The position numbers and the translations under genes were made by a program. From an uncultured Paraprevotella sp. (GTDB lineage: Bacteria; Bacteroidota; Bacteroidia; Bacteroidales; Bacteroidaceae), in the NCBI GenBank assembly GCA_947177395.1, contig CAMWUI010000019.1, positions 1 to 51,902 on the forward strand: a stretch of 51,902 bases of DNA, given 5' to 3'. The notes under the pieces were generated by a model. That model was not told the origin of the DNA. It saw nothing but the letters and a program-made list of their open reading frames with translations, and made no database searches. The number at the start of each line of letters is the position of its first letter. The first letter of the stretch is position 1. This document shows positions 4,236 through 37,112 of this stretch, piece after piece.

Positions 4236-4375
4236 GCAAACTGCAAATAGAATCAAATATTTGGGGGCATAGACAGATTATATGTTTGTACTGTATTCTA
4301 AGAAAGCGGTTGTTTTGTGGTCGAAAATTTCGACTACAAAACACCTCAAGAAATCAAGTAAGCAAATTGAATTGA
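4232..4375 (+). pseudogene. Duplicated hsdS start, 47-codon remnant
   Basis: The ATG overlaps the hsdM stop (ATGA) and the first codons read MSKLQ, identical to the start of the real hsdS at 4389 (the 14 bases ATGAGCAAACTGCA occur at both places). After that the frame continues for 47 codons with no resemblance to HsdS and ends at 4375. The simplest reading is that about 157 bp were inserted or duplicated at the hsdM-hsdS junction, leaving a decapitated start. It might be translated as a short leader peptide coupled to hsdM. Confidence 0.6.
4312..4342. repeat. 31-bp near-perfect palindrome between hsdM and hsdS
   Basis: Arms GTTTTGTGGTCGAAA (4312-4326) and TTTCGACTACAAAAC (4328-4342) are complementary around a single base, with one G-T pair that still pairs as RNA. 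Being inside the inserted piece, it could be a recombination or transposition footprint, an RNA hairpin affecting downstream hsdS, or a protein site. There is no T run directly after it, so it is not a classical terminator. Confidence 0.8.
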
Positions 4376-4388
4376 AGGAGGGATAGAT

Positions 4389-4985
4389 ATGAGCAAACTG
4401 CAGGAGTTGATACAAGATCTTTGTCCCAACGGCGTGGAATATAAACAATTAGGCGATAAAACAGTTTCTACAATGCAACGTGGAACATCGTTGTCTAAAA
4501 AGGATTCTATGGAAGGGGTATATCCTGTAATATCAGGTGGTAGGGTTCCGGCATTTTATTGTGATCGGTTTAACAGGGATGGGGAAACAATTACTGTCGC
4601 TGGAAGTGGGGCTGGGGCTGGTTATGTACAGTATTGGAACGAAAAAATATTTGTATGTGATGCCTTTTCAGTAAAAGGAGTAAATGATATTTCCACAAAA
4701 TACCTCTATTACTGTTTAACAAGCTTACAGGATAAAATTTACGCTACGAAAAAAGGAGGAGGGGTACCTCATGTTCATATATCGAGTATTGATAAATTTC
4801 TTATTCCAATCCCCCCTCTTGCCGTGCAAGAAGAAATAGTAAGGATTCTCGACCGCTTCACGGAATATGCAGCGGAGCTGCAAGCGGAGCTGCAAGCGGA
4901 GCTGCAAGCGAGACAGGAACAGTATGAGTATTATAGGAATAGACTGTTGACATTCAGCAAAATAGGGGGGGGGGTAAATGGATAA
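4389..4985 (+). CDS. hsdS: HsdS N-terminal half (TRD1 plus central helix), current phase
   Basis: The specificity subunit of a type I enzyme normally has two target recognition domains, each followed by a conserved helix. This frame of 198 residues has only the first: TRD1 at about 1-150 and the helix with AELQ repeats and EQYEYYRNRLLTF at about 158-190. It stops soon after a run of ten G at 4965-4974. One more G (or two fewer) would join it to the next frame and give 396 residues, the size of EcoR124I HsdS, through the junction [15 protein letters not shown]; such K-W-x-K segments normally open the second TRD. In type IC enzymes, half subunits of this kind (EcoDXXI truncation, NgoAV) can pair and recognise a new symmetric target, so the product may be active. 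GAAGGAGGGAT precedes the ATG. Confidence 0.93.
   Translation: MSKLQELIQDLCPNGVEYKQLGDKTVSTMQRGTSLSKKDSMEGVYPVISGGRVPAFYCDRFNRDGETITVAGSGAGAGYVQYWNEKIFVCDAFSVKGVNDISTKYLYYCLTSLQDKIYATKKGGGVPHVHISSIDKFLIPIPPLAVQEEIVRILDRFTEYAAELQAELQAELQARQEQYEYYRNRLLTFSKIGGGVNG
4872..4907 (+). repeat. Three 12-bp repeats in the HsdS central helix (AELQ x3)
   Basis: GCGGAGCTGCAA is repeated three times without change and encodes AELQ-AELQ-AELQ in the helix that separates the two recognition domains. In EcoR124I and EcoR124/3 a repeat of the same size and place (TAEL, two or three copies) sets the spacer length between the two halves of the DNA target. Copy number is a multiple of three bases, so changes would keep the frame. 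Confidence 0.93.
4965..4974 (+). repeat. G10 homopolymer, putative phase-variation switch of hsdS
   Basis: Ten consecutive G inside hsdS. With G10 the frame ends at 4985; with G9 it ends directly at TAA after the tract; with G11 or G8 it runs on to 5578. Tracts of this type slip during replication in many phase-variable genes, including hsdS of NgoAV. The true length distribution in the population cannot be seen from one assembled sequence. Confidence 0.9.
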
Positions 4986-4987
4986 AG

Positions 4988-5578
4988 ATGAGTGAGATAG
5001 GTACATTTATAAGAGGAAAACGGTTTGTAAGGACAGACATTGTGAATGATGGTGTTCCTTGCATTCATTATGGTGATATGTACACACATTATGGATTATA
5101 TGCAACAAAAAGTATAGGCATGCTTAGAAAAGAGTTTGCCTCAAAAATGAGATATGCTCAAAAAAATGATGTTGTGATTGTTGCTGCCGGTGAGAATAAA
5201 GAAGATATTGGTATTGGTTTAGCTTGGCTTGGAGATGAGCCTGCGGCAGTACATGATGCTTGTTTCATATTTAGGAGTGATTTATATCCTCAATATGTCT
5301 CTCATTATTTGCGTTCAAATTATTATCATAAACAAATAGTTAAGTATGTATCGGAAGGAAAAATCTGCTCTATATCTGCAAAAGGTTTAGGTAATGCTAT
5401 TATCCCAATTCCTACCTATGAGGAACAGGTGAGAATAGCCACTTTGCTAAATAAATTTGATGCTTTAGTCAATGACTTGACTATAGGTCTTCCGGCAGAG
5501 ATAGCCGCAGTGCAGGAGCAGTATGAGTATTACAGAGACAAACTATTATCATTTCCGAACTCTAAAATAAGTGCATAA
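4988..5578 (+). CDS. hsdS: HsdS C-terminal half (TRD2 plus C-terminal helix), out of frame
   Basis: A frame of 196 residues holding the second recognition domain (about 1-145) and a C-terminal conserved helix with [13 protein letters not shown]. It lies in the +2 frame relative to the first half and starts 2 bp after its stop. The same frame is open upstream through the G tract, giving KWIK before the ATG, so it is better read as the second half of one gene than as an independent gene. It could still be translated alone from ATG 4988 by coupling. The identical 14-mer CAGTATGAGTATTA lies 531 bp after the start of each half (4920 and 5519); recombination between the copies would delete TRD2 and leave an in-frame half HsdS. 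Confidence 0.9.
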
Positions 5579-5579
5579 T

Positions 5580-6764
5580 ATGGGAAAGACATTGAGGGAA
5601 ATAGCTCAAACGCTTAAAGACACTAATAAAAAGGTGCAATTGATATATGCCTTTAATGGTGTTGGAAAGACTCGCCTTTCACGTGAGTTTAAGGAATTGA
5701 TTGCGCCAAAAAACGAAGGAAAAGAGGAAGAACAGCTTATAAAAGTCCTTTATTATAATGCTTTTACTGAAGACTTGTTCTATTGGGACAATGATTTGGA
5801 TAGAGACAGGGACAGGAAGATAATAATACATCCAAATAATTTCACGGATTGGGTACTTAGGGTTCAAGGTCAAGAGGCCAATGTAATCACTTATTTCCAG
5901 CGTTACACGAATGATAAGCTTACCCCTTCGTTCAACGAGGAGTACGTGACGAAGGATGCTGAGAATAAAGATGTAGTGGTGAGGGCGTACTCGGAGATTA
6001 GATTTTCGTTAGAGCGTGGCAATGAGGAGAAGATTGATAGCATCAAAATCTCAAAGGGAGAGGAGAGTTGTTTAATTTGGTGTGTCTTTTACAGTTTGCT
6101 GAAACAGATTGTGGAGACACTGAACGTGGCAGAGGATGACCTCCGGGAGACAGACCAATTTAATGATTTGGAATATATATTCATAGATGACCCGGTAAGT
6201 TCGTTAGACGAGAACCATCTGATAGAGTTGGCTGTGGATATTGCGGAGTTGATTAGAGACAGCCAATCTAAAGTGAAGTTTATTATTACAACGCATAACC
6301 CGTTATTTTATAATGTGCTGTATAATGAATTGAATAATGCAGATAAAGAGACTGACGATAAGGCAAAGAAATCTCTAAAAAAGCGTTTGGAGAAATTGGA
6401 TGACGGCACTTTTCTGCTTCATGATTCCAATGACTCGCCGTTCTCTTATCATCTGTTTCTCTTGTCTGAGCTTGATAAGGCTATCCAATCTGGCGACATA
6501 AAGAAGTATCATTACAACTTCCTTCGCCAGATATTGGAAAAGACCTCAACATTTCTTGGGTATAAGAAATGGAGAGATTTATTGCTCCTGTTGCCTGACG
6601 ACTCTCACGAGGCATATTATAACCGTATAATAAATCTTTGCAGCCATGGGAAACATTCAGGGGAAGAGACTTCTTTCATAGATGATAATGACAAGAGGGT
6701 GTTAGGCTATCTTGTACGGGAGATAAGAAACATATATCACTTCAAAGACGACAAAAAATCATAA
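5580..6764 (+). CDS. prrC: PrrC-type anticodon nuclease
   Basis: E. coli PrrC cleaves tRNA-Lys at the anticodon when a phage inhibits the type IC enzyme that keeps it silent. This protein has 394 residues from the ATG at 5580 (E. coli PrrC has 396) and begins [10 protein letters not shown] like it. The ABC-type ATPase half has Walker A NGVGKT at 26-31, signature ISKGEES at 157-163, Walker B FIDDP at 201-205, D-loop SSLD and H239. The nuclease half keeps the triad as R316, E320 and H356, and [12 protein letters not shown] at 281-292 aligns with the tRNA-Lys recognition segment of PrrC. An insert of about 15 charged residues (254-270) precedes that segment. It starts 1 bp after the hsdS stop and precedes hsdR, as in the prr locus. 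It appears intact; an alternative GTG start at 5571 would overlap hsdS. Confidence 0.95.
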
Positions 6765-6775
6765 TAATAGGGCAA

Positions 6776-9700
6776 ATGGCACAGTATAGCACAATAGCAG
6801 AGTCCAACAATTTTATAGTACTTGATGAGTACGACAAAAGTTGTGTGGCGTGCGAACCTTCCGCTGTTTATCAGACAGAGGCATCGTTGGAGCGTGAGTT
6901 TATCCAGGACTTGAGAAATCTGGGATATGACTATCTCCCTGACCTTACTACACCGGAGGCATTACTTGATAACATAAGAGAGCAACTCCAGCATCTAAAT
7001 AATGTCACTTTTACTGATAGCGAATGGAAGCGGTATGTGGAAGAATATCTGGATAAGCCAAGTGACTCTCTTGTTGAGAAAACAAGAAAATTGCAGGATA
7101 ACCATATCTATGACTTTGTTTTTGATGACGGCCATATAAAGAACATCTATTTGGTGGACAAACGGAATCTGACCAGAAACAAGGTGCAGGTTATATCTCA
7201 GTTTACCCAGGAGGGGCAGCATGCCAACCGCTATGATGTAACAATCTTGGTGAACGGATTGCCTTTGGTTCAGGTAGAGTTGAAGAAGCGAGGTGTGGCA
7301 ATAAGAGAAGCCTTCAATCAGGTACACCGCTATTCGAAGGAAAGTCTTAACACGAACAATTCATTATATAAATACATTCAGGTTTTTGTCATATCCAATG
7401 GCACGGACAGCCGATATTTCGCCAACACCGTAGAGCGGAACAAGAACAGTTTCGACTTTACGATGAACTGGGCCACGGCAAACAATAATTTGATTAAGGA
7501 CTTGAAGGACTTTACCGCAACATTCTTCCAGAAGAATACACTCTTGAACGTGATATTCACATACGCCGTGTTTGATACCAACAACACGCTGCTGGTGATG
7601 CGTCCCTATCAAATTGCGGCAACGGAAAGAATATTGTGGAAGATCAGAAGTTCGTATCAGGCAAAAAGGTGGTCAACGACTGACGGGGGGGGCTATGTGT
7701 GGCATACAACAGGCTCAGGCAAGACACTTACGAGTTTCAAGGCTGCAAGATTGGCGACCCAACTTGATTTTATAGACAAGGTGTTTTTTGTGGTTGACAG
7801 AAAAGACCTTGACCACCAAACGATGAAAGAATATCAGCGATTCTCTCCAGACAGCGTTAATGGTTCGGAAAGTACTGCGGGATTGAAACGAAACATAGAC
7901 AAAGACGATAATAAAATCATTGTTACAACGATTCAAAAGCTGAATAATCTGATGAAGAGCAAGGACGATTTGCCCATTTATCAGAAACAGGTGGTCTTTA
8001 TCTTTGACGAAGCACATCGCTCGCAGTTTGGTGAAGCCCAAAAGCAGTTGAAGAAGAAGTTTAAGAAATACTATCAGTTCGGATTTACCGGTACCCCCAT
8101 CTTCCCCGAAAATGCACATGGTTCAGAAACTACGGCAAATGTATTCGGAAGGGAACTGCACTCGTATGTCATTACGGATGCTATCCGCGACGAAAAGGTG
8201 TTGAAGTTCAAGGTGGATTATAATGATGTCCGACCACGATTCAAAGGAATAGAGACAGAGCGAGATGAGGAAAAACTGAGTGCGGCGGAAAACAAGTCGG
8301 CATTGCTTCACCCTGAGCGTATCAAAGAAATATCCCAATACATATTGGACAACTTTAGGATAAAGACGCACAGAAGCCTTGGGGCAAACAAGGGTTTTAA
8401 CGCAATGTTTGCCGTTAGCAGTGTGGATGCTGCCAAGTGCTATTATGAGGAACTGAACAGGCTACAGAAAGACTCCGACAAGCGATTAAAGATAGCAACC
8501 ATTTTCTCTTTTGCTGCAAATGAGGAGCAAACCGCAATTGGTGACATTCTGGACGAAAACTTCGAGCCGACGGCAATGAACGTGAGTGCCAAGGAATTCT
8601 TGACGAATGCCATCAACGACTATAATGCGATGTTCAAAACAAATTATGGGGTTGACAGCAGAGAGTTTCAGAATTACTATAGGGATTTGGCAAAAAAGGT
8701 TAAGAATAAAGATATTGACCTTGTGATTGTTGTCGGAATGTTCCTGACCGGTTTTGACGCACCAACCTTAAACACGCTGTTTGTCGATAAGAATCTTCGT
8801 TACCACGGTCTGATTCAGGCGTTCTCTCGAACAAACCGAATATTCGATGCTACCAAGACATTTGGCAATATCGTTACCTTCAGAGACTTGGAGCAGCACA
8901 CTATTGATGCTATAACGTTATTTGGTGACAGCAATACCAGAAATGTAGTGCTGGAAAGAAGCTACAAGGAGTATTTAGAAGGATTTAAGGATGTCACTTC
9001 AGGAGAAGTTCGCAGGGGGTATGTTGAAATCGTAAAAGAGTTGAACGAAAGATTTCCCGATGTTGATAGGATAGAGACGGAGCAAGAGGAAAAAGAATTC
9101 GTCAAATTGTTTGGCGAGTACCTGAAAATAGAGAACATCCTGCAGAACTATGACGAATATACACACCTCAAGGCATTGCAGGCAATAGACTTGAATGACC
9201 CCGATGCTGTCGAGGAGTTCAAAAGCACTCACTATGTGACAGATGAGGATATTAAGGAAATGCGACGAGTAGAAGTGTTGGCAGAACGGAAAGTTCAGGA
9301 TTACAAATCTACGTACAACGATATTAGAGATTGGCTAAGATGTCAGAAAGAAGGTGCCGCAACAGAACAGTCTAAGATTGACTGGGACGATGTAGTTTTT
9401 GAGATTGACCTGCTCAAATCTCAGGAAATCAACCTTGACTACATTCTTGAATTGATTTTTGAACACAATAAGAAGATAAAGGACAAGTCGTCTTTAATAG
9501 CTGAAATACGTGGAGTCATTCGGGCAAGTGTTGGCAATAGGGCAAAAGAGAGCCTTATTGTGGATTTCATTAACGAGACAAACTTAGATGCCATGACGGA
9601 CAAAGCAAACATCATTGAGTCGTTCTTTGAATATGCACAACGCAAGCAGAAACAGGAGGCTGCCGATTTAATTACGTCAGAAAACCTAAATGAGGAAGAT

Positions 9701-28493: not shown

Positions 28494-31400
28494 CTACACC
28501 GTAAGCCAACCGTAACCTTGTATTGCCATGTCGATGAAATGATTCATCAGCAAATTTGTTTTTGCGGCAAACACTTCGCGGTCGTACGATTCCGGTAAGT
28601 CATTATTCAGAGAGACTTTAATGATGTCCATAACCTTTTGTTTGGGTTGGGCATCTTTGTGCCAGTCCACACCCATTACATTATTCTCTTCAGAGAGCCT
28701 CTTGTACAAATTCTTGGCGGCTAACTTAACCTTCTGTTCTTCTTTCTGCGTCAGTTTGCGGTCTTTGACAAGCAGGTCGAAGATTTCAAGTTCTTCCTCC
28801 TCCAGTTCCATTTCGGTGGCACGATTCTGTTCGCGCTTCAGATCTTCAATAAGTTGAAGAAGTTTCTCGTAATAATCCTCGTTCTCGCTGCCTCCGGCAT
28901 TATAACGGCCGATAATATTCTTATATCGTTCCGAGAATGCGATACGAGTACAATTCTTGTTGATAAGCCGCTTCAATGTATCTTCAATATATTCACGCAA
29001 ACTATCTATTTCAAGCGCTTTATAGGGAGATTCACGTATAACCTTGCGTACAGCATCCACATCAAGCTTACTAAGGTCGATAACCTTGCTTTTATATATA
29101 CCGCATCTGTCAGCGACAACAGCCGACACGCTGTCATCAAGCGTATCGACCATTCTTGCCTTGGCCCGGTTCAGTTTTTCATCGTCTATCCGGTTGCAGG
29201 AAAGTCCGTGCAGATAACTAATAGGCGCAAACTTGTCGTTAGCCCAACCTCTTTCGAATATCTCCGGTTTGCTTGCGTCATAAAGATTCATCAGCAGGTT
29301 ACCCAAAACTTTGAATCTGTCTTTCCATTCGTCTTTTTCGAGTATCTTCACGTACGCCAGCCGTAAAAGTTCAAGTTGGTCAAGCGTATTGGATTCTGCT
29401 ATAATATCTTCTATGCTTATGCCCAACTGCATAAGGAACACTTCGCACTCCGTGATACATTCATCTATATTCTGGATAAGCGTCTCAATGTCTTTTGCCG
29501 GATATTCCGAACCGTTGTCATTGGACGCATAGTCGCTCAATGCCCGTTGCATATACTTGAATACATTGACATAATCAACCACGATACCGCAACTCTTGCC
29601 GGGGAATACGCGATTCGCACGGGCTATCGCCTGCATCAGCGTGTGCCCCTTCATCGGTTTGTCAAGATAGAGCGTGGAGAGCGACGGCACATCAAAGCCG
29701 GTCAGCCACATAGCGCACACAAATACGAGGCACAACGGATTGTCCGGGTCTTTAAAGCGGTCTTCTATGTCTTTGCCATCCGGCGTTATCTCATTCAGTT
29801 TCTTGCGGTGAAGTGTAATGTCGAGTCCCTGTGCAGCAAATTTCCCAGCTTCATCGGCATCTTCACTGATTACCACCGCCATTTCAACATTATTCATATA
29901 ATTGAGCATCGCCGTGAGGCGGTCGCGTTCTTCCTGGGTCGTTGTATGACTGCGCTCTTTGACAAGCTTCTTTTTCTCCTCTGCCCAATACTTTTGCACC
30001 TTGTCGTACATTTTCACCGCAGTGTACTTGTCTACGCTCACTACCATTCCTTTGCCAAGAAAACCGCGGCGCGGGAAATGATGCGCGATGTCTTGTGCAA
30101 TCTTATCTAAGCGTTCGTCGCGTTTTATCACTTCCAGAATACGGGACGACGAGTTTTCAAGCAACTCCTTTTCACGGTCGTTCAGGTTTTCATCCTCCAC
30201 TATCTGGTCGATGTCGGTGTCGAGCCAGTCATTGGTAAGCCCGACTTCGGGGACTCGGCGGCTGTAGAACAAGGGTACGGTGCTGCCGTCTTCAATGGCC
30301 TGGGCAAAGTTATACTCAGACACATAGTCGCCGAACCATTGGTTTGTCAGGCGCTTGCTGCCCAACAGCGGTGTCCCCGTAAATGCAATGTAATTGGCGT
30401 TGGGCAGTCCGGTATGCATATTCTCCGCCAACTGCTTGTATTGCGTGCGGTGCGCCTCATCTACAAGCACGAAGATGTCATTTCGTTCCGAGAGAATGGG
30501 ATATTTCTTCGTCTTATCATATTGGAACTTATGGATGAGGGTGAACACCATCGGCTTGTTGCCCGACAGGAATTCCCGGAGTTGTGCGGCATTCTTCGGC
30601 TGGCACTCCTCCTTGTCCCCTATCATTTCTGCCCGCACGAAAGTCTTGTGTATCTGTGCGTCGAGGTCTTCACGGTCGGTAACCACCAGGAAAGTGAAGT
30701 TCCCGTGCAGTTTGCGCTTCACCTTGCGCACAAACATCACCATCGAATAGCTTTTTCCCGAACCTTGCGTATGCCAGAATACGCCTAATTTCCCTTTCAG
30801 TTCATCCCGGTTCCAAACGCTTTTCATCAGATTGTTGACTCCCAGATACTGGTGGTTTTTGGCGATAATCTTGATGCGTTTGTTGTCGAAGAAGATAAAA
30901 TTCTCTATGTAATCAAGCAACCGCTCCTTGCGGAAAAGGCCGTCAATCAGGTTGGTGATGCTCAGACCGTAGTCTTCAATTTGTTTGCGATCCACCTTCT
31001 CTTTCTCATCATCCACCCGCAGCCACTCAAAGAAAAACTCATATCCGGCATTCCACGCCCCTATTTTCGTTTGCAAACCATTCGAGAGAACGCATATCTG
31101 GTTTAGAGCAAACAGGTTAGGGATGTCTGCCCGATATGAAACAAGGTTTTTGTTGTAGGATTCCTCTAACTTCACCGTTGAGTTCTTCAACTCTATGAAT
31201 ACCAACGGCAGGCCATTTACGAAAAGCAATACATCCGGACGACGGTAACGGAAACGCCCTTTTATCCACATCTGGTTGACGCAGTGGAAGTCATTGTTCT
31301 CCGGATTGTCGAAGTCAATCAACCGTACAATATCAAAATCTTCCCGGTTTTGCTTGCGTGTCTTCACCTTGATACCGTTGCGAATCTGGTTGTAGAACTT

Positions 31401-31688
31401 ATAGTTCGTGTCCACCATATCCGCACCGGTATAATCTTTCCGGTAGTCGCGCACAATATCTTCAAGAATCTCCGGGGCTATTTGAGGGTTCAAACGCTTC
31501 AGGGCATTTAGGTATATTTCAGGAAGAATGCACTCTTCTACGTTCGCGCGTCCTGTCTTCAACAGATCATTCTGCCCCTCAACGCTGGGGTCGCATTCAA
31601 TGCGCTGCCATCCATACTCCGGTTGCGACAGCCGGGTGCATATCGCCTGTTCGATATTGTCTTCGCTGATGAATGATTTCATAGCCAT
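28494..31688 (-). CDS. hsdR: Type I restriction subunit HsdR (second system)
   Basis: Motor and nuclease subunit, 1064 residues. The PD-(D/E)XK site is D152, E166 and K168 in [11 protein letters not shown] to VFIELKN. The SF2 motor has Walker A QGSGKS at 308-313, DEAH at 410-413, FTGTPLL, and [14 protein letters not shown]. The C-terminal part is helical. It differs throughout from the HsdR of the first locus, so the two systems are separate and not duplicates. It is the last gene of the operon and begins 123 bp after the AlbA_2 gene, across two 11-bp repeat arrays. No terminator is seen before the converging helicase gene. Confidence 0.97.
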
Positions 31689-31691
31689 ATA

Positions 31692-31734
31692 CTTAAAGCT
31701 CGCTTAAACTCACTTGAAACTCACTTGAAACTTA
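31692..31734. repeat. 11-bp tandem array, copy 1
   Basis: Four units beginning CTTAAAGCTCG (31692), CTTAAACTCA (31703, 10 bp), CTTGAAACTCA (31713) and CTTGAAACTTA (31724). They resemble the second array 44 bp away and share the 11-bp step. The array lies in the leader of hsdR on the minus strand, within 45 bp of its start codon. Confidence 0.8.
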
Positions 31735-31777
31735 ATATTATTACAAGCTGTAAAACAACAAGATATATTACCTTCCA

Positions 31778-31815
31778 CTTAAAAGTCGCTTAAAAGTCGC
31801 TTAAAAGTCGCTTAA
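31778..31815. repeat. 11-bp tandem array, copy 2
   Basis: CTTAAAAGTCG is repeated three times exactly (31778, 31789, 31800), and a partial fourth unit overlaps the stop codon (31812-31814) of the AlbA_2 gene. Changes in copy number would alter the spacing between that gene and hsdR without changing either protein. Confidence 0.88.
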
Positions 31816-33494
31816 CATAGAATCCACTTTTTTTCCGTATTACTCTGAATTTTTCCCTGCATTCTCAGTTTGGTAAGAATATTACCCACCTTGCTTTTCT
31901 TTTGTTTATCAGTGAGCACATCCGAGAGTTTGTCCATTATCAATAAATCAATATCATGGCGAGAAGCCTGTTTGAACTTCTTCAAATATTCAAGAATCAT
32001 ATCCATAAAGTAATCATCATCAAAACTACGATTCTTGACATAGGTGGTTTTCAAACCCACCTGCCGACTGTATCCCGCAATTTTGGCAGAAAGATATATA
32101 TTCGGCTTACGCCCTTCGATATACCCTTTCTTTCGGAACAGGGCAATGGTATCATCCGTTATTGGCTGATGCTTCTGCACCTTGTCAAGCAGGATTATTT
32201 CAGGTAACTTGAGGTCTGGATTATTCACCAGAATCTTTGCAAAGTTTTCATCAAGGACATTTCCTTGTATCTTACACACGACCTTACCATCGCTCAAATC
32301 GTATTCAGGCATAGGAAAGAAACGATTCTTCTGCTGAATATAAAGTTTACGTATTCCACCGCCTTCCGTTTCCACCATTTTTACATTCCTCATAGCTTCA
32401 ACCAAAAACGGATTACGATATTCTGACTCTGGGAAGTTGTGCTCTACCACATCTTCAACTGATGAAGGAAGAAACTCGCCATAGTTTCTGAACAGTAGCG
32501 ACTCGTCTTCGTGCTCTATTACTTCTATTCTTGTTTTTCTTCCATAGTCTTGGTGTGCGATACAGTTGCAGAGTGGCTCTCTTAGGGTAAACACGTCATA
32601 GCGTTGCATCATTTCTGGGAACATATTTCCACTAATCGTAAAAGTGTAGTTGGCATTTCTAACCAAATGCTGGAAATCCTCCACTGCCTGTATCATAGGA
32701 ATAGACAAAATTCTAAAATCCTTGTTCTCATCGCCGCCGTCTTTCAATTGCCAGCGAATCTGACACACAGCGGGCGAAATGAAATGGCTCGCCTCTTCTC
32801 TGCCGACAAGTATGATGGCAGTATTGGTGATTTTCCCTTGGCGTGTGATATGCGCTTTATTCAAGAAAGTCATATCGTCCCATGAGTCAATCTCTTCTAT
32901 GCGATTGGAGTGCAATTCCTTATACTTATCGCGCGCCAAGCGTATCGCTTTGGGGTCAAGGTCTTGCAAGGTGGCATCTGGGATGATTTCTGCTGACCAG
33001 TCCTTACCTGCAATAGGTTCACTCAGAATGGCCTCCATGCGCTCTTTGGTCATTGGAACCAAAGAGTCTTTGATGCGCTGCCACGCTTTCTTATGAGCAA
33101 TAACCGGTCTGCGAGGGAAATGCTTGGGAATGTGAAATACCCAGACTTTTTTCTTACTATCTTCTGTTACAAATTCCTCTATATTCAGTCCTTCACTCGA
33201 AAGATTGGTGCAATGTTCGGTCAGTTTGAATGTAGCAGACTCTTTTGTGGCAGGCAGACCATTGAAAGTAAGTCCCGAATAGTCAGTTCCAACGATATTG
33301 AGGGTTTGGTCTTCCACACCAATGACAAGGTGCCCTCCGTGCATATTACTGATGGCACTGACGTATGAGACCACATCCTTCCCTTCACTACCAGAAAACA
33401 TATTCTTCAAGTTGCGGAATTCTTTCCACTCGCATTTCTCATTCTCGCGTGGATAATTGAGAAGCAAATATTCTTGTAATGCTTTTTCTGTCAT
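31812..33494 (-). CDS. AlbA_2/Schlafen-like and HATPase_c_4 protein of the type I locus
   Basis: A 560-residue protein of the group once named divergent AAA-4 or RecG-related. Residues about 15-130 form an AlbA_2 domain (ISNMHGGHLVIGVED), about 285-370 an HATPase_c_4-like region (LREPLCNCIAHQDYGRKTRIEVIE), and the C-terminus is a winged-helix-like segment. Genes of this kind are common passengers between hsdS and hsdR in type I loci; regulation or defence roles have been proposed without a settled mechanism. It lies 36 bp after hsdS and is intact, so it is probably part of the operon. Confidence 0.85.
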   Translation of the reverse strand: MTEKALQEYLLLNYPRENEKCEWKEFRNLKNMFSGSEGKDVVSYVSAISNMHGGHLVIGVEDQTLNIVGTDYSGLTFNGLPATKESATFKLTEHCTNLSSEGLNIEEFVTEDSKKKVWVFHIPKHFPRRPVIAHKKAWQRIKDSLVPMTKERMEAILSEPIAGKDWSAEIIPDATLQDLDPKAIRLARDKYKELHSNRIEEIDSWDDMTFLNKAHITRQGKITNTAIILVGREEASHFISPAVCQIRWQLKDGGDENKDFRILSIPMIQAVEDFQHLVRNANYTFTISGNMFPEMMQRYDVFTLREPLCNCIAHQDYGRKTRIEVIEHEDESLLFRNYGEFLPSSVEDVVEHNFPESEYRNPFLVEAMRNVKMVETEGGGIRKLYIQQKNRFFPMPEYDLSDGKVVCKIQGNVLDENFAKILVNNPDLKLPEIILLDKVQKHQPITDDTIALFRKKGYIEGRKPNIYLSAKIAGYSRQVGLKTTYVKNRSFDDDYFMDMILEYLKKFKQASRHDIDLLIMDKLSDVLTDKQKKSKVGNILTKLRMQGKIQSNTEKKWILC

Positions 33495-33530
33495 AATCTG
33501 AAATAAATTTAGATATGTTTTATATCGCTT

Positions 33531-34877
33531 TCAAAACTCATATCCGCAGCAATACCATTCTCTGTGTCGGTTGTCTTGTTCACGCCTTCCAAATTTAGTT
33601 TTTACTTCTAATTTTCCGCTCATCAGGCGAGGTAAAAGAGCGTCCCGTTGCTTTATGAGATTTTCATTCTGCATTGCCAGTTTGTTGATTTCTTTAATAA
33701 TCGGAATAATTTGACTCTCAAATATGTTCATTATGTCCATTGGTGGTAACATAACCAATCCCTTGCGAAGGAATGCCTCGAACTTAAAATTAATAATGCC
33801 GGTAGACTGTAATTGAAATCTATCTATTATACGTGTACAATATAAATATTGCATCCAATAATAAAAAAAGTATGGAGAGGCTACCGCTTTGTTCAATCGA
33901 ATTAACTTGCAGAAACTAGCACATATAACTTTCCCATCTTTGAATCGATCTATCATTTCTTGAGTTACAAGGACGGTTCTCCCGACAGGCTGTTCCGAAG
34001 TGCCTCCGGAGATTTCCATGACAATATCACCCTCCACAAGTTGGCGAGACTTATAATTGCTGATTTTATGGTAGCGTCTTGGGCAACTTGATAAATCATA
34101 GCGCCAAACACTGGGAAAATCTGCACCTCTTATAACTCTGGCTTCAATAGGATAATCTTCTGAATAATCATCATTTCCCCAACCTCCGCCAATGTAATAT
34201 TCAAATATAGAATTCATATTTGTAACTTGGAAAGTAGCCGGTAGTCTTCCAAGTTTACTTCCTACGAACTCAGTGTTTTCATATCCAGGGAAGCGGAAAC
34301 GGACGAACCATTCCTTATAGAGATTCTCTGCCATTTGTTCCAGCAAACGAATCCGCTTTGTGTTGTTCTCTATTAAAGAGTCGTATGCGGAGAGGATAGA
34401 GGCTATCTTACGTTGTTTCTGTAAGTTTGGCTCTATTGGAAATTTGAGTTTAGCAAATTTATTCTTACTGATTATAGGAGTGCCGGAGCCAGATCCTCCT
34501 CCAATCAGTTGAAAATAAGGCAGAGCTTCTCTAATTAAATAATAGATATATCTATAATCGTTGTCTTTATTAGGGATTATGGTGTTTATTTGTTGATTAG
34601 TTATTGATGCTGATTTTGTAATACACGGTTTCCCTATAGTAGACCCAATGCAGGTGACGCAAACGGTATTTGGAGGTAATAGTGTTTTTTGTTGTCTTGA
34701 CGCACCATAAGCAGATACTGTGCGTTCTGTCGATTCCTGGTAGTAAGTATCATATCCTTCTATGTCTGTGGGAGTAATAAATGGAATTGTTCCACCCCAC
34801 AATTCATTATTTGTGGTAGACGGTGTCTTACCCGTAACAATACCACCTAGTTCAGACAACTGCTTATACATTTTCAT
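33531..34877 (-). CDS. hsdS: Type I specificity subunit HsdS (second system)
   Basis: A full-length specificity subunit of 448 residues with two recognition domains. TRD1 covers about 1-150 and is followed by the conserved helix NLQKQRKIASILSAYDSLIE; TRD2 covers about 205-375 and is followed by a second helix ending in LLPRLMSGKLEV. No homopolymer of note was seen. About 26 residues after LMSGKLEV are unusual, rich in R and W; the +1 frame there reads NGIAADMSFESDIKHI before its own stop, so a late frameshift is possible. The start is 3 bp after the hsdM stop, with GGGAGGGAT as ribosome site. Confidence 0.95.
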   Translation of the reverse strand: MKMYKQLSELGGIVTGKTPSTTNNELWGGTIPFITPTDIEGYDTYYQESTERTVSAYGASRQQKTLLPPNTVCVTCIGSTIGKPCITKSASITNQQINTIIPNKDNDYRYIYYLIREALPYFQLIGGGSGSGTPIISKNKFAKLKFPIEPNLQKQRKIASILSAYDSLIENNTKRIRLLEQMAENLYKEWFVRFRFPGYENTEFVGSKLGRLPATFQVTNMNSIFEYYIGGGWGNDDYSEDYPIEARVIRGADFPSVWRYDLSSCPRRYHKISNYKSRQLVEGDIVMEISGGTSEQPVGRTVLVTQEMIDRFKDGKVICASFCKLIRLNKAVASPYFFYYWMQYLYCTRIIDRFQLQSTGIINFKFEAFLRKGLVMLPPMDIMNIFESQIIPIIKEINKLAMQNENLIKQRDALLPRLMSGKLEVKTKFGRREQDNRHREWYCCGYEF

Positions 34878-34880
34878 ATA

Positions 34881-36563
34881 TTATCCCTCCCCAAACAATT
34901 CCTTCATATTCTTCTCTATCTCCGCCATCAGCGTCTCTGCCTCGGCATTGAGGGCTTTGAGTTCAGCGTGACCAGCCTTCATTGTCTCGGCAAACTCCTC
35001 TTCCGTCATACCGTCGTCCTCAATCACCACGCCCACATAGCGTCCGGCATTGAGCGAATAATCCTGGTCAATGATTCCGTCCTCGCCTTCGAGTTTCGCC
35101 ACTTTGCACAAACCAATAATATCCCGGTAAATACCATCGGGCCAACGCTCCAGTAGCCAATCGACGTGCTCCTGCTTGCCTGTCTGTTTGTATTCATCCA
35201 CGAGTGCCCAAAAGGCAGTGCTGTCTCCCTCGTAAAGGCGGGTAATGATACCGAGATTCTTTATCTGCTCGTCGCTGAATTTGCGGTGGGCACGATCGAC
35301 CTGGGTAAAGATGTTCCTTGCATCAATGAACAGGATTTCGTCCTTGTTCTTTTTCTCCTTATTGAAGAACCATAGCGTGGCCGGCAGCGTTACTGTCGAG
35401 AACATATTGCTTGGCAACGTCACCATCTGCGAAATGATGCCGTCCTCAATCATCTTCTTGCGGATTTCCAATTCCGAACCGCCTGCGTCGCTGGCGGAAT
35501 TTGCCATTACAAGCGCCGCCTTGCCGGTGGCATTCAGCGATGTGGCAAAAAGTCCTATCCAAAGGTAGTTGGCATTCGGAACCGTTTCCTTTTTATCAGA
35601 AGCCTTTTTGCCGGACTTGGTTTTGTTGCGGGGCACACCGTAGGTGTTGAACCGCTTGTCATCAATGACTTTGTCCACCACAACTTCATCCACATTGAAC
35701 GGCGGATTTGCCATCACATAGTCGAAGTTTCCGAACTCGTCGTGAGGGTCGGAGTAGAAGGAATTGGCCTCGATAATATCTCCCCGCACATTGTTCAACA
35801 GCAAGTTCATCTTAGCCAGCTTGACCGTGTCGGGATCCTTCTCCACACCGTAGCAACGGAAGCGCATCATGTCGCTGTTGGTGGCATTATGGCGGTGCAT
35901 ATAACGGGCAGCCTGGACAAACATACCGCCGGAACCACAGGCCGGGTCAAGGAATCTCTTTTCTCCGATAACGGGCCGCAGAACCTCCACCATATACTGC
36001 ACCACCGAAGCCGGCGTATAGAAGACACCGCCGCCCTGCCCCTCGCTCAGCGCAAACTCGCCGAGGAAATACTCATATATTTCGCCGAAAAGGTCTATGC
36101 CGATATCTTCCGGTATGTCCTTGAACACACGGATAATCTTGCTGAGCAGTTCAGGCTCCTCCTCCGGAACCAATTGCCCATACACTTCCTTCGGAAGCAC
36201 CCCGTCCATTCTCGGGTTTTCCTGCTCGATGGCCTGCATGGCGTTCTTGACAAGCACTGCCTTGTTCGCATCATCGGGAGCATTGTTCAGCGTGTCGAAA
36301 TACGCACATTCGGGAAGAAAGAAACCACACTCCCCGATGGCGATATCCTTGTAGGATTTCTCCATTCGGGTGCCTTTATACTTGTTATATTCCGCCTCTA
36401 TCTTTTCCTTGTGCTGCTTGAAGAGCACATCGGCATAACGCAAAAAGATGAGTCCGAGAATAGGTTGCCCATATTTATTGGCAGAAAGATGGGCGCTGGC
36501 ACGAAGCATGTCTGCCGAGTGCCAAAGATTATCTTTGAGTTGTTTGAGTTCCTGATCTGTCAC
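34881..36563 (-). CDS. hsdM: Type I methyltransferase HsdM (second system)
   Basis: N6-adenine methylase subunit, 560 residues from the GTG at 36563. This start gives MTDQELKQLKDNLW, typical of the family; the frame is open to a TTG at 36617, but that TTG lies upstream of the -7 box (36606-36613). Motif I is DPACGSGG (206-213) and the catalytic motif is NPPF (286-289). FYTPASVV precedes motif I. A C-terminal helical stretch rich in E and K ends the protein. It differs in length and motifs from the first HsdM, so it belongs to another type I family. It leads the hsdM-hsdS-AlbA_2-hsdR operon. Confidence 0.95.
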   Translation of the reverse strand: MTDQELKQLKDNLWHSADMLRASAHLSANKYGQPILGLIFLRYADVLFKQHKEKIEAEYNKYKGTRMEKSYKDIAIGECGFFLPECAYFDTLNNAPDDANKAVLVKNAMQAIEQENPRMDGVLPKEVYGQLVPEEEPELLSKIIRVFKDIPEDIGIDLFGEIYEYFLGEFALSEGQGGGVFYTPASVVQYMVEVLRPVIGEKRFLDPACGSGGMFVQAARYMHRHNATNSDMMRFRCYGVEKDPDTVKLAKMNLLLNNVRGDIIEANSFYSDPHDEFGNFDYVMANPPFNVDEVVVDKVIDDKRFNTYGVPRNKTKSGKKASDKKETVPNANYLWIGLFATSLNATGKAALVMANSASDAGGSELEIRKKMIEDGIISQMVTLPSNMFSTVTLPATLWFFNKEKKNKDEILFIDARNIFTQVDRAHRKFSDEQIKNLGIITRLYEGDSTAFWALVDEYKQTGKQEHVDWLLERWPDGIYRDIIGLCKVAKLEGEDGIIDQDYSLNAGRYVGVVIEDDGMTEEEFAETMKAGHAELKALNAEAETLMAEIEKNMKELFGEG

Positions 36564-36605
36564 AGCCGCGCTATTGAAGATTAACTTTTGCTTATTTTCT
36601 AATGA

Positions 36606-36613
36606 CAAATATA
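36606..36613 (-). promoter_or_regulatory. -7 box of the second hsd operon
   Basis: TATATTTG on the minus strand, 43 bp before the GTG start of hsdM. No -33 TTTG at the usual distance. It supports the GTG start over the upstream TTG. Confidence 0.6.
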
Positions 36614-36617
36614 ACAA

Positions 36618-36904: not shown

Positions 36905-37019
36905 TGGACGTTCTGTACAGAACCTGTTGTACGGAGTGTACAGTAACTATTGTACAGAGTGTACAGAGCCTGTTGTACAGAGTGTACAGCAACTATTGTA
37001 CGGAGTGTACAGTAACTAT
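36905..37019. repeat. 23-bp tandem array C with TGTAC-N5-GTACA dyads
   Basis: Five units of 23 bp start at 36905, 36928, 36951, 36974 and 36997. The last four each hold the perfect dyad TGTAC-N5-GTACA, and the first is degenerate. Units at 36928 and 36997 are identical. The dyads face the same side of the helix every two turns, as expected for a multi-site operator. The array sits between the GH95 terminator and the second hsdM promoter, about 290 bp from the latter. It is much better preserved than array A. Confidence 0.92.
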
Positions 37020-37112
37020 TGCACGAATACCAAAAACTGTTCTATCGGATATTTGAAATTACCAAAAGGAGGAAGCAAGAAATCGATCATTTCCCAGGAA
37101 AAGCCCCAAAAG

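Follow-up and report, generated by a model that had tools for sequence, protein, structure and literature searches.

The window, by which we mean the whole stretch of 51,902 bases under study, originates from an uncultured Paraprevotella sp. and carries a restriction-modification (R-M) operon of the EcoR124I (type IC) kind, with the gene order hsdM-hsdS-prrC-hsdR (Table 1). The hsdS gene is split into two half genes, S1 and S2, at a run of ten G residues. Membership of type IC, which a preliminary description of the same DNA had proposed, is borne out by the HsdM subunit (TIGR00497), by the EcoR124_C domain of HsdR and by the architecture of HsdS, in which each half contributes one TRD and, behind it, a conserved helix similar in both, with the HsdS of EcoR124I (7bst) as the best solved relative of both halves. 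An enzyme of this family would methylate and cut DNA at a bipartite target. The reading frames of hsdM, prrC and hsdR are open in the window.

Table 1. Features of the type IC operon, with their positions in the window and the evidence for each.
Feature	Position	Strand	Evidence or remark
hsdM, N6-adenine methyltransferase subunit, 520 aa	2673..4235	+	TIGR00497 hsdM E 1.1e-194; N6_Mtase, HsdM_N
hsdM-hsdS spacer, short ORF and uninterrupted 15-bp hairpin	4236..4388	+	one copy in own genome; fold z -5.3
S1, first hsdS half, N-terminal TRD and conserved helix, 198 aa, stop at 4985	4389..4985	+	Methylase_S E 5.2e-22; 7bst E 1.1e-25; AF2 pLDDT 87.9
12-bp tandem repeat (AELQ), 3.3 copies, in conserved helix; EcoR124I TAEL equivalent	4871..4910	+	TRF
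G10 tract, S1/S2 junction	4965..4974	+	sequence; 14 other loci with tract at same junction
S2, second hsdS half, C-terminal TRD and conserved helix, 196 aa	4988..5578	+	Methylase_S E 8e-9; 7bst E 1.3e-22; AF2 pLDDT 89.6
prrC-like anticodon nuclease gene, 394 aa, ATPase part and C-terminal nuclease part	5580..6764	+	PADLOC PrrC E 2.9e-140; AAA_13
hsdR, type IC restriction/translocation subunit, 1035 aa	6776..9883	+	EcoR124_C E 2.9e-70; TIGR00348
G8 run in hsdR, directly 5' of HTTGSGKT motif, frame open	7685..7692	+	candidate second slippage site

The G10 tract starts at codon 193 of hsdS and lies immediately past the first conserved helix, which ends in LLTF. S2 is in the +2 frame relative to S1 and has an ATG two bases past the S1 stop; its frame is already open upstream of the tract (211 codons from stop to stop). 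The preliminary description had placed the ten G residues and the limits of both frames at the same positions, which the sequence and an ORF check confirm. Equally correct were its frame arithmetic, by which one G more or two fewer would join the halves, the joined length of 396 residues (the EcoR124I HsdS chain has 404 aa) and the residues at the junction.

The 12-bp repeat encoding AELQ is present in three copies in the window and in two copies in the related loci L124 and L125. The helix residues F157, L168, E171, Q178, Y182 and R183 have identical numbering in S1 and S2, so that, with three AELQ repeats, both helices are of equal length over that stretch. In the AlphaFold models each half consists of a complete TRD plus one long helix, and both are predicted to fold completely. 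When the folds of the halves were compared, the matches were type I S subunits of the ordinary kind and Esub1, a chain of half size. The residues encoded by the tract belong to the tail past the S1 helix, where the confidence of the model falls, and a change of frame there would thus alter the linker alone. Between the window and L125, both of which are split alleles, the dN/dS of S2 is 0.043 (dS 1.54). Such a low value indicates constraint, but says nothing of a separate function, as it is expected too if the joined form alone mattered.

A first-order Markov model predicts 0.019 runs of ten or more G and 0.34 runs of eight or more in 51,902 bases, where one and two were seen, respectively; both runs of at least eight lie within the R-M operon. 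In 80 loci of HsdM relatives (1,255,611 bases) ten G/C runs of at least eight were counted, five of them at the hsdS junction. The codon GGG makes up 11.8% of the 203 glycine codons in six genes of the window. The assembly to which the window belongs (2,652,470 bases in 72 contigs, 87.7% complete) has runs of at least eight at 22 places, some of which are likely contig-end artefacts. Long poly-C/G runs (C53, C12, C17) stand at or near the ends of contigs C35, C57 and C60 and are probably sequencing artefacts; the exact length of any homopolymer in this assembly is therefore to be taken with caution.

The same junction was studied in the best 80 HsdM relatives, in 64 of which it could be read by motif. 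Seven of these 64 have a tract (G6-G9), five more tract loci came from genome searches (L124-L128) and two from further close HsdM relatives (L171 and L173), which together with the window gives 15 loci with G6-G10 at the hsdS junction. The gene is split in seven (window G10, L125 G10, L126 G9, L128 G7, L015 G8, L028 G8, L047 G7) and joined in eight (L124 G8, L127 G8, L016 G6, L017 G8, L023 G8, L026 G9, L171 G8, L173 G8). The preliminary description had suggested, as a check, to compare the tract across strains; the comparison made here is one between species, in which alleles in different states differ elsewhere too and the tree accounts for part of the pattern of states. All seven split loci have an open downstream half, over 188-211 codons in six of them and up to the contig end in L015. 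The closest approach to a same-allele comparison that was found is the pair L124 (G8, joined; 82% identity to the window in S1 and 89% in S2) and L125 (G10, split; 80% and 89%). A run of G6 in L087 lies in a different linker, with no S2-frame ATG within 18 codons, and this locus is outside the 15. In L171 the gene continues in frame into the second domain and is then broken by an insertion, presumably IS21-like. L128 is an orphan split hsdS (5342-6606, minus strand) in which the target domains of the two halves are very similar by eye; no match to the HsdM or HsdR of the window was found within its 10.5 kb.

HsdM proteins with at least 77% identity occur in 13 of 399 genomes of the family. Ten junctions were read, six with a tract (G000, G213, G715, G280, G722, G150) and four without (G101, G026, G077, G747), this count leaving out G143 (contig edge), G296 (partial match) and G247. 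In a quickly built tree of 87 HsdM rows, nine of the 12 rows known at that point to have a tract fall, in both states, into one Bacteroidales clade of 12 rows (SH-aLRT 98); its other rows are L018, which is free of a tract, and L013 and L014, which end before the junction. The states are unevenly spread within this clade, one sub-clade having three split loci and the other five joined loci plus one split locus (L125). The tract rows L026, L028 and L047 fall outside it. The tract label changes at least seven times on the tree if unreadable rows are counted as lacking it, and five times over the readable rows, which suggests a tract inherited in some lines and regained or moved in others.

Searches with the junction pattern itself gave mixed returns. 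A strict pattern matched 13 places in 12 of 399 genomes, five of which are hsdS junctions according to tblastn, and the reversed control pattern gave nine matches, so that the pattern alone counts for little as evidence. Another search hit ten places in ten of 395 genomes, none of the nine besides the window being hsdS, and a further one hit nine places in seven of 393 genomes, of which one (G506) has an hsdS. The exact pattern had no match in viral contigs. The HsdM sequence matched 1,162 plasmid records, and among the best 15 of these the top one reaches 78% identity over almost the full query.

An S2-frame ATG within 18 codons is found at 13 of 14 junctions with at least six G, L087 being the exception, and at 12 of 62 other junctions (Fisher 3.9e-7), an association that is unsupported once relatedness is allowed for, as it then comes down to three (starred) to five independent pairs on the HsdM tree. 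A measure combining ATG and stops, which included stops 5' of the tract as well, gave 4 of 13 against 5 of 57, and on the tree the opposite direction was seen more often than the same one. In each of 13 tract loci (all but L171 and L173), the stops closing both off-frames after the tract lie within -25 to +14 nt of the first ATG in the S2 frame, an arrangement that would permit a restart. Both off-frames are closed within 18 codons at all 13 tract junctions and at 36 of 57 other junctions (p 0.007), and the stop distances of the two groups do not differ (p 0.54). Because the ATG excess is lost in the relatedness check and early stops are common also where there is no tract, we can only infer a restart at S2.

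The gene between hsdS and hsdR is assigned to prrC by its sequence family and by this location within a type IC operon. The residues R316, E320 and H356, which we take to be the PrrC nuclease residues, are invariant in 33 of 33 aligned rows (four partial matches were dropped, and two genomes are present twice). In the excerpts of the literature that we consulted, the PrrC nuclease triad is mentioned (PMC3874168), a role is given for its arginine and histidine (PMC3710099), and PrrC is described as silenced by its R-M partner and freed by inhibition of this partner or by a rise in dTTP or in unmodified DNA (PMC3710099). A comparison of PrrC with solved structures gave nothing at E<=1. PrrC is matched in 24 of the 80 best HsdM-relative loci, and prrC stands beside a tract-bearing hsdS in seven loci: the window, L125, L028, L016, L017, L124 and L127.

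The G8 run in hsdR is the sole run of that length among 69 motif sites examined. A second tract at no more than 7.2 kb from the first one has a probability of about 0.055 (Poisson, from the 22 places in the assembly), a borderline value, and the run accordingly stays a candidate second switch. The prrC gene, the 12-bp repeat and this run were absent from the preliminary description.

The spacer between hsdM and hsdS repeats, at its upstream edge, 14 bases of the hsdS start (ATGAGCAAACTGCA). BLAST searches of the fetched loci gave no match to it other than at its edges. The idea that it is a repeated mobile element is unsupported, as the genome has a single copy. The corresponding gap is 2 nt in L124, L125, L016, L026 and L047; the gaps of L126, L127, L015, L023 and L028 hold differing genes of about 1 kb (nuclease-like, Fic-like and RhuM-like, by eye). 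Just upstream of the operon (801-2438) lies a gene for an AAA-ATPase with a PD-(D/E)XK nuclease-like C-terminus (AAA_35, PDDEXK_3). A second, different type I system is encoded on the minus strand at 28494-36617, with hsdM (34881-36617), an unsplit hsdS (33531-34877, 448 aa), another gene (31812-33494) and hsdR (28494-31688); its hsdS was identified by Pfam and its remaining genes by eye from the translations. A 23-bp tandem unit containing TGTACAG (4.9 copies, 36914-37025) is situated upstream of the second hsdM and could be a regulatory repeat. Shuffling of hsdS by inversion was considered and rejected: a second cassette was not found, the Methylase_S matches in the assembly, at its completeness of 87.7%, being limited to the split pair and 34335-34868 of the separate system.

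The tract has the position known from NgoAV, and its homologues are joined or split at differing tract lengths, which makes a frame switch the best reading. It is probable, judging from the sequences compared, that we are dealing with a phase-variable type IC R-M locus with a PrrC-type gene, in which slippage toggles between a one-chain and a two-half HsdS and in which the split state is probably two-piece. Since such a G run occurs among relatives in split as well as in joined genes, the cell probably alternates between recognition proteins made of one piece and of two. The change of frame would come about through slipped-strand mispairing in the tract that separates the HsdS domains. In the joined state there would be one HsdS chain, with a fixed 1:1 pairing of the TRDs and a hybrid target only, whereas G10, as sequenced, would represent the split state with two separate half-subunits. 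Here ribosomes would translate S1 to its stop and then probably reinitiate at the ATG of S2, two bases further on. With both halves likely made and able to re-pair, for which EcoDXXI offers a precedent, the pairings S1.S1, S2.S2 and S1.S2 would all become possible and the methylome could widen or shift. Slippage in the living population, the restart at S2, a function of each pairing and the change of the methylome are what we infer from this comparison.

The preliminary description had proposed that the locus alternates between a full HsdS and a lone half with a symmetric target. The frame switch it contained is supported by the joined and split homologous loci with their differing tract lengths. 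Its lone half fares less well, given that S2 is open, has a low dN/dS, is predicted to form a complete fold and has an ATG directly behind the S1 stop; on balance a two-piece HsdS appears more likely than one lone half in the split state. Since the restart at S2 is itself presumed, the lone half is retained as a rival. It would correspond to strict NgoAV behaviour, in which the split state makes S1 alone, S1.S1 recognizes a symmetric target and S2 stays silent until the frames join. Such behaviour is on record for NgoAV, where hsdS1 alone gives a symmetric specificity and hsdS2 is reported as inactive (PMC9577141, in the excerpt consulted). It would also suit an S1 that ends directly past its helix, a presumed restart and an ATG association that failed the relatedness check. 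The openness of S2 with a nearby ATG in the seven split loci (in L015 up to the contig end) speaks against it, the C-terminal part of NgoAV being described as incomplete in the excerpt of PMC3874165, and we regard a silent S2 as rather unlikely, though worth keeping in mind.

Simpler accounts of the split gene do without any switching. If hsdS were a decayed or OFF allele, with the tract as the scar of a pseudogene, one would understand why the frames are separate as sequenced, why an hsdS of related kind (L171) was broken by an insertion and why L128 is an orphan with no window-HsdM match nearby; decay is nevertheless very improbable in view of both halves being open in all seven split loci, the low dN/dS, the open hsdM, prrC and hsdR in the window and the retention of the tract across diverged loci. 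An assembly error, with frames joined at the real tract length and an hsdS fixed at full length, would be in keeping with a draft in 72 contigs that has poly-G/C runs (C53 and C17) at contig ends. It is nonetheless improbable: six other assemblies hold split versions with tracts of G7-G10, and a fixed gene would leave the recurrence of a tract at one spot unexplained. Little likelihood is also given to a neutral run of glycine codons in the linker, without selected switching. A low-confidence linker resembles a disordered tail, for which tolerance of length is expected, the tract belongs largely to one inherited lineage and the state partly follows the tree; against this, GGG is a minor glycine codon, half of the ten long G/C runs in 1.26 Mb of related loci fall at the hsdS junction and both states occur with open halves.

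The frame switch between a one-piece and a two-piece HsdS can be carried further, to a proposal that we put forward only tentatively and hold to be doubtful as a whole. The two half-subunits of the split state might provide up to three specificities at once, with the original one kept by re-pairing, and three slippage sites (the hsdS tract, the G8 run in hsdR and the 12-bp repeat) may adjust the target, the spacing and the cutting of a PrrC-guarded system. The presence of S1.S2 in both phases would then shield a switching cell both from self-restriction and from PrrC; that a switch keeping S1.S2 in both phases is safer than one losing it is speculation. A split state in two pieces would mean that one slip yields several methylation patterns while the old protection is kept. 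If true, this bears on two questions: for what reason the halves of HsdS are usually found in one chain, and how a restriction system with a guard copes with a change of its own specificity.

Phase variation by simple sequence repeats (SSR) in type I systems was surveyed in REBASE (Atack 2020) and concerns 7.9% of hsdS genes, as cited in the excerpt of PMC7394358; the present locus resembles those systems in having an SSR in hsdS for which phase variation is predicted. According to the same excerpt, SSR-driven phase variation of hsdS had been demonstrated in N. gonorrhoeae alone as of that 2020 paper. No description of phase variation of a PrrC-linked hsdS was found in a partial literature search, which did not extend to the Atack 2020 survey, the source likeliest to list such loci; the 'PrrC' of PMC5530802 and PMC5183652 is the name of a plasmid. 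The E. coli prr locus (EcoprrI-PrrC) likewise has an anticodon nuclease of the PrrC family within a type IC hsd locus, and a PrrC of this kind would cleave tRNA-Lys when the R-M enzyme is inhibited. The excerpts of PMC3710099 and PMC12707154 on EcoprrI-PrrC mention no phase variation of the prr locus.

Half-HsdS subunits of type IC enzymes are able to pair in EcoDXXI and EcoR124I. The N and C halves of EcoDXXI each act as homodimers and restore the wild-type activity when co-expressed, as described in the excerpt of PMC3874165. The halves of those two enzymes are transposon-made or deliberate truncations, whereas a natural switch is proposed here. In EcoR124I and EcoR124II, according to the same excerpt, a 12-bp repeat (TAEL) in the conserved helix, in two or three copies, sets the target spacer, and EcoPrrI has three copies. 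The unit in the window is AELQ, and its three copies, against two in L124 and L125, would be a candidate for a comparable effect on the spacer.

The closest parallel is NgoAV of Neisseria gonorrhoeae, a type IC system in which a poly-G switch between hsdS1 and hsdS2 (6-9 G in 92 strains) changes the methylation target (PMC9577141, excerpt). The parallel drawn in the preliminary description proved sound, the tract having an equivalent position: it closes the first hsdS half, and a change of its length fuses or separates the halves. The hsdR run of G8 falls within the NgoAV range in length. What is found here is an NgoAV-like device, equivalently placed, in several loci of Bacteroidota whose second half has stayed open. 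The hsdS2 of NgoAV is reported to encode no active protein in the excerpt of PMC9577141, in contrast to the S2 described here, which is open with an ATG nearby. That S2 is open, conserved and predicted to fold tends to argue against an inactive C-terminal half. According to the same excerpt, HsdS2 may be functional in one gonococcal strain, and an active second half may therefore not be new. The prrC gene, the hsdR tract and the 12-bp repeat are features of the window for which that excerpt has no counterpart in NgoAV. As far as its sequence goes, the locus has a probably phase-variable hsdS of the NgoAV kind, set apart in that S2 is open, that prrC belongs to the operon and that further repeats are present.
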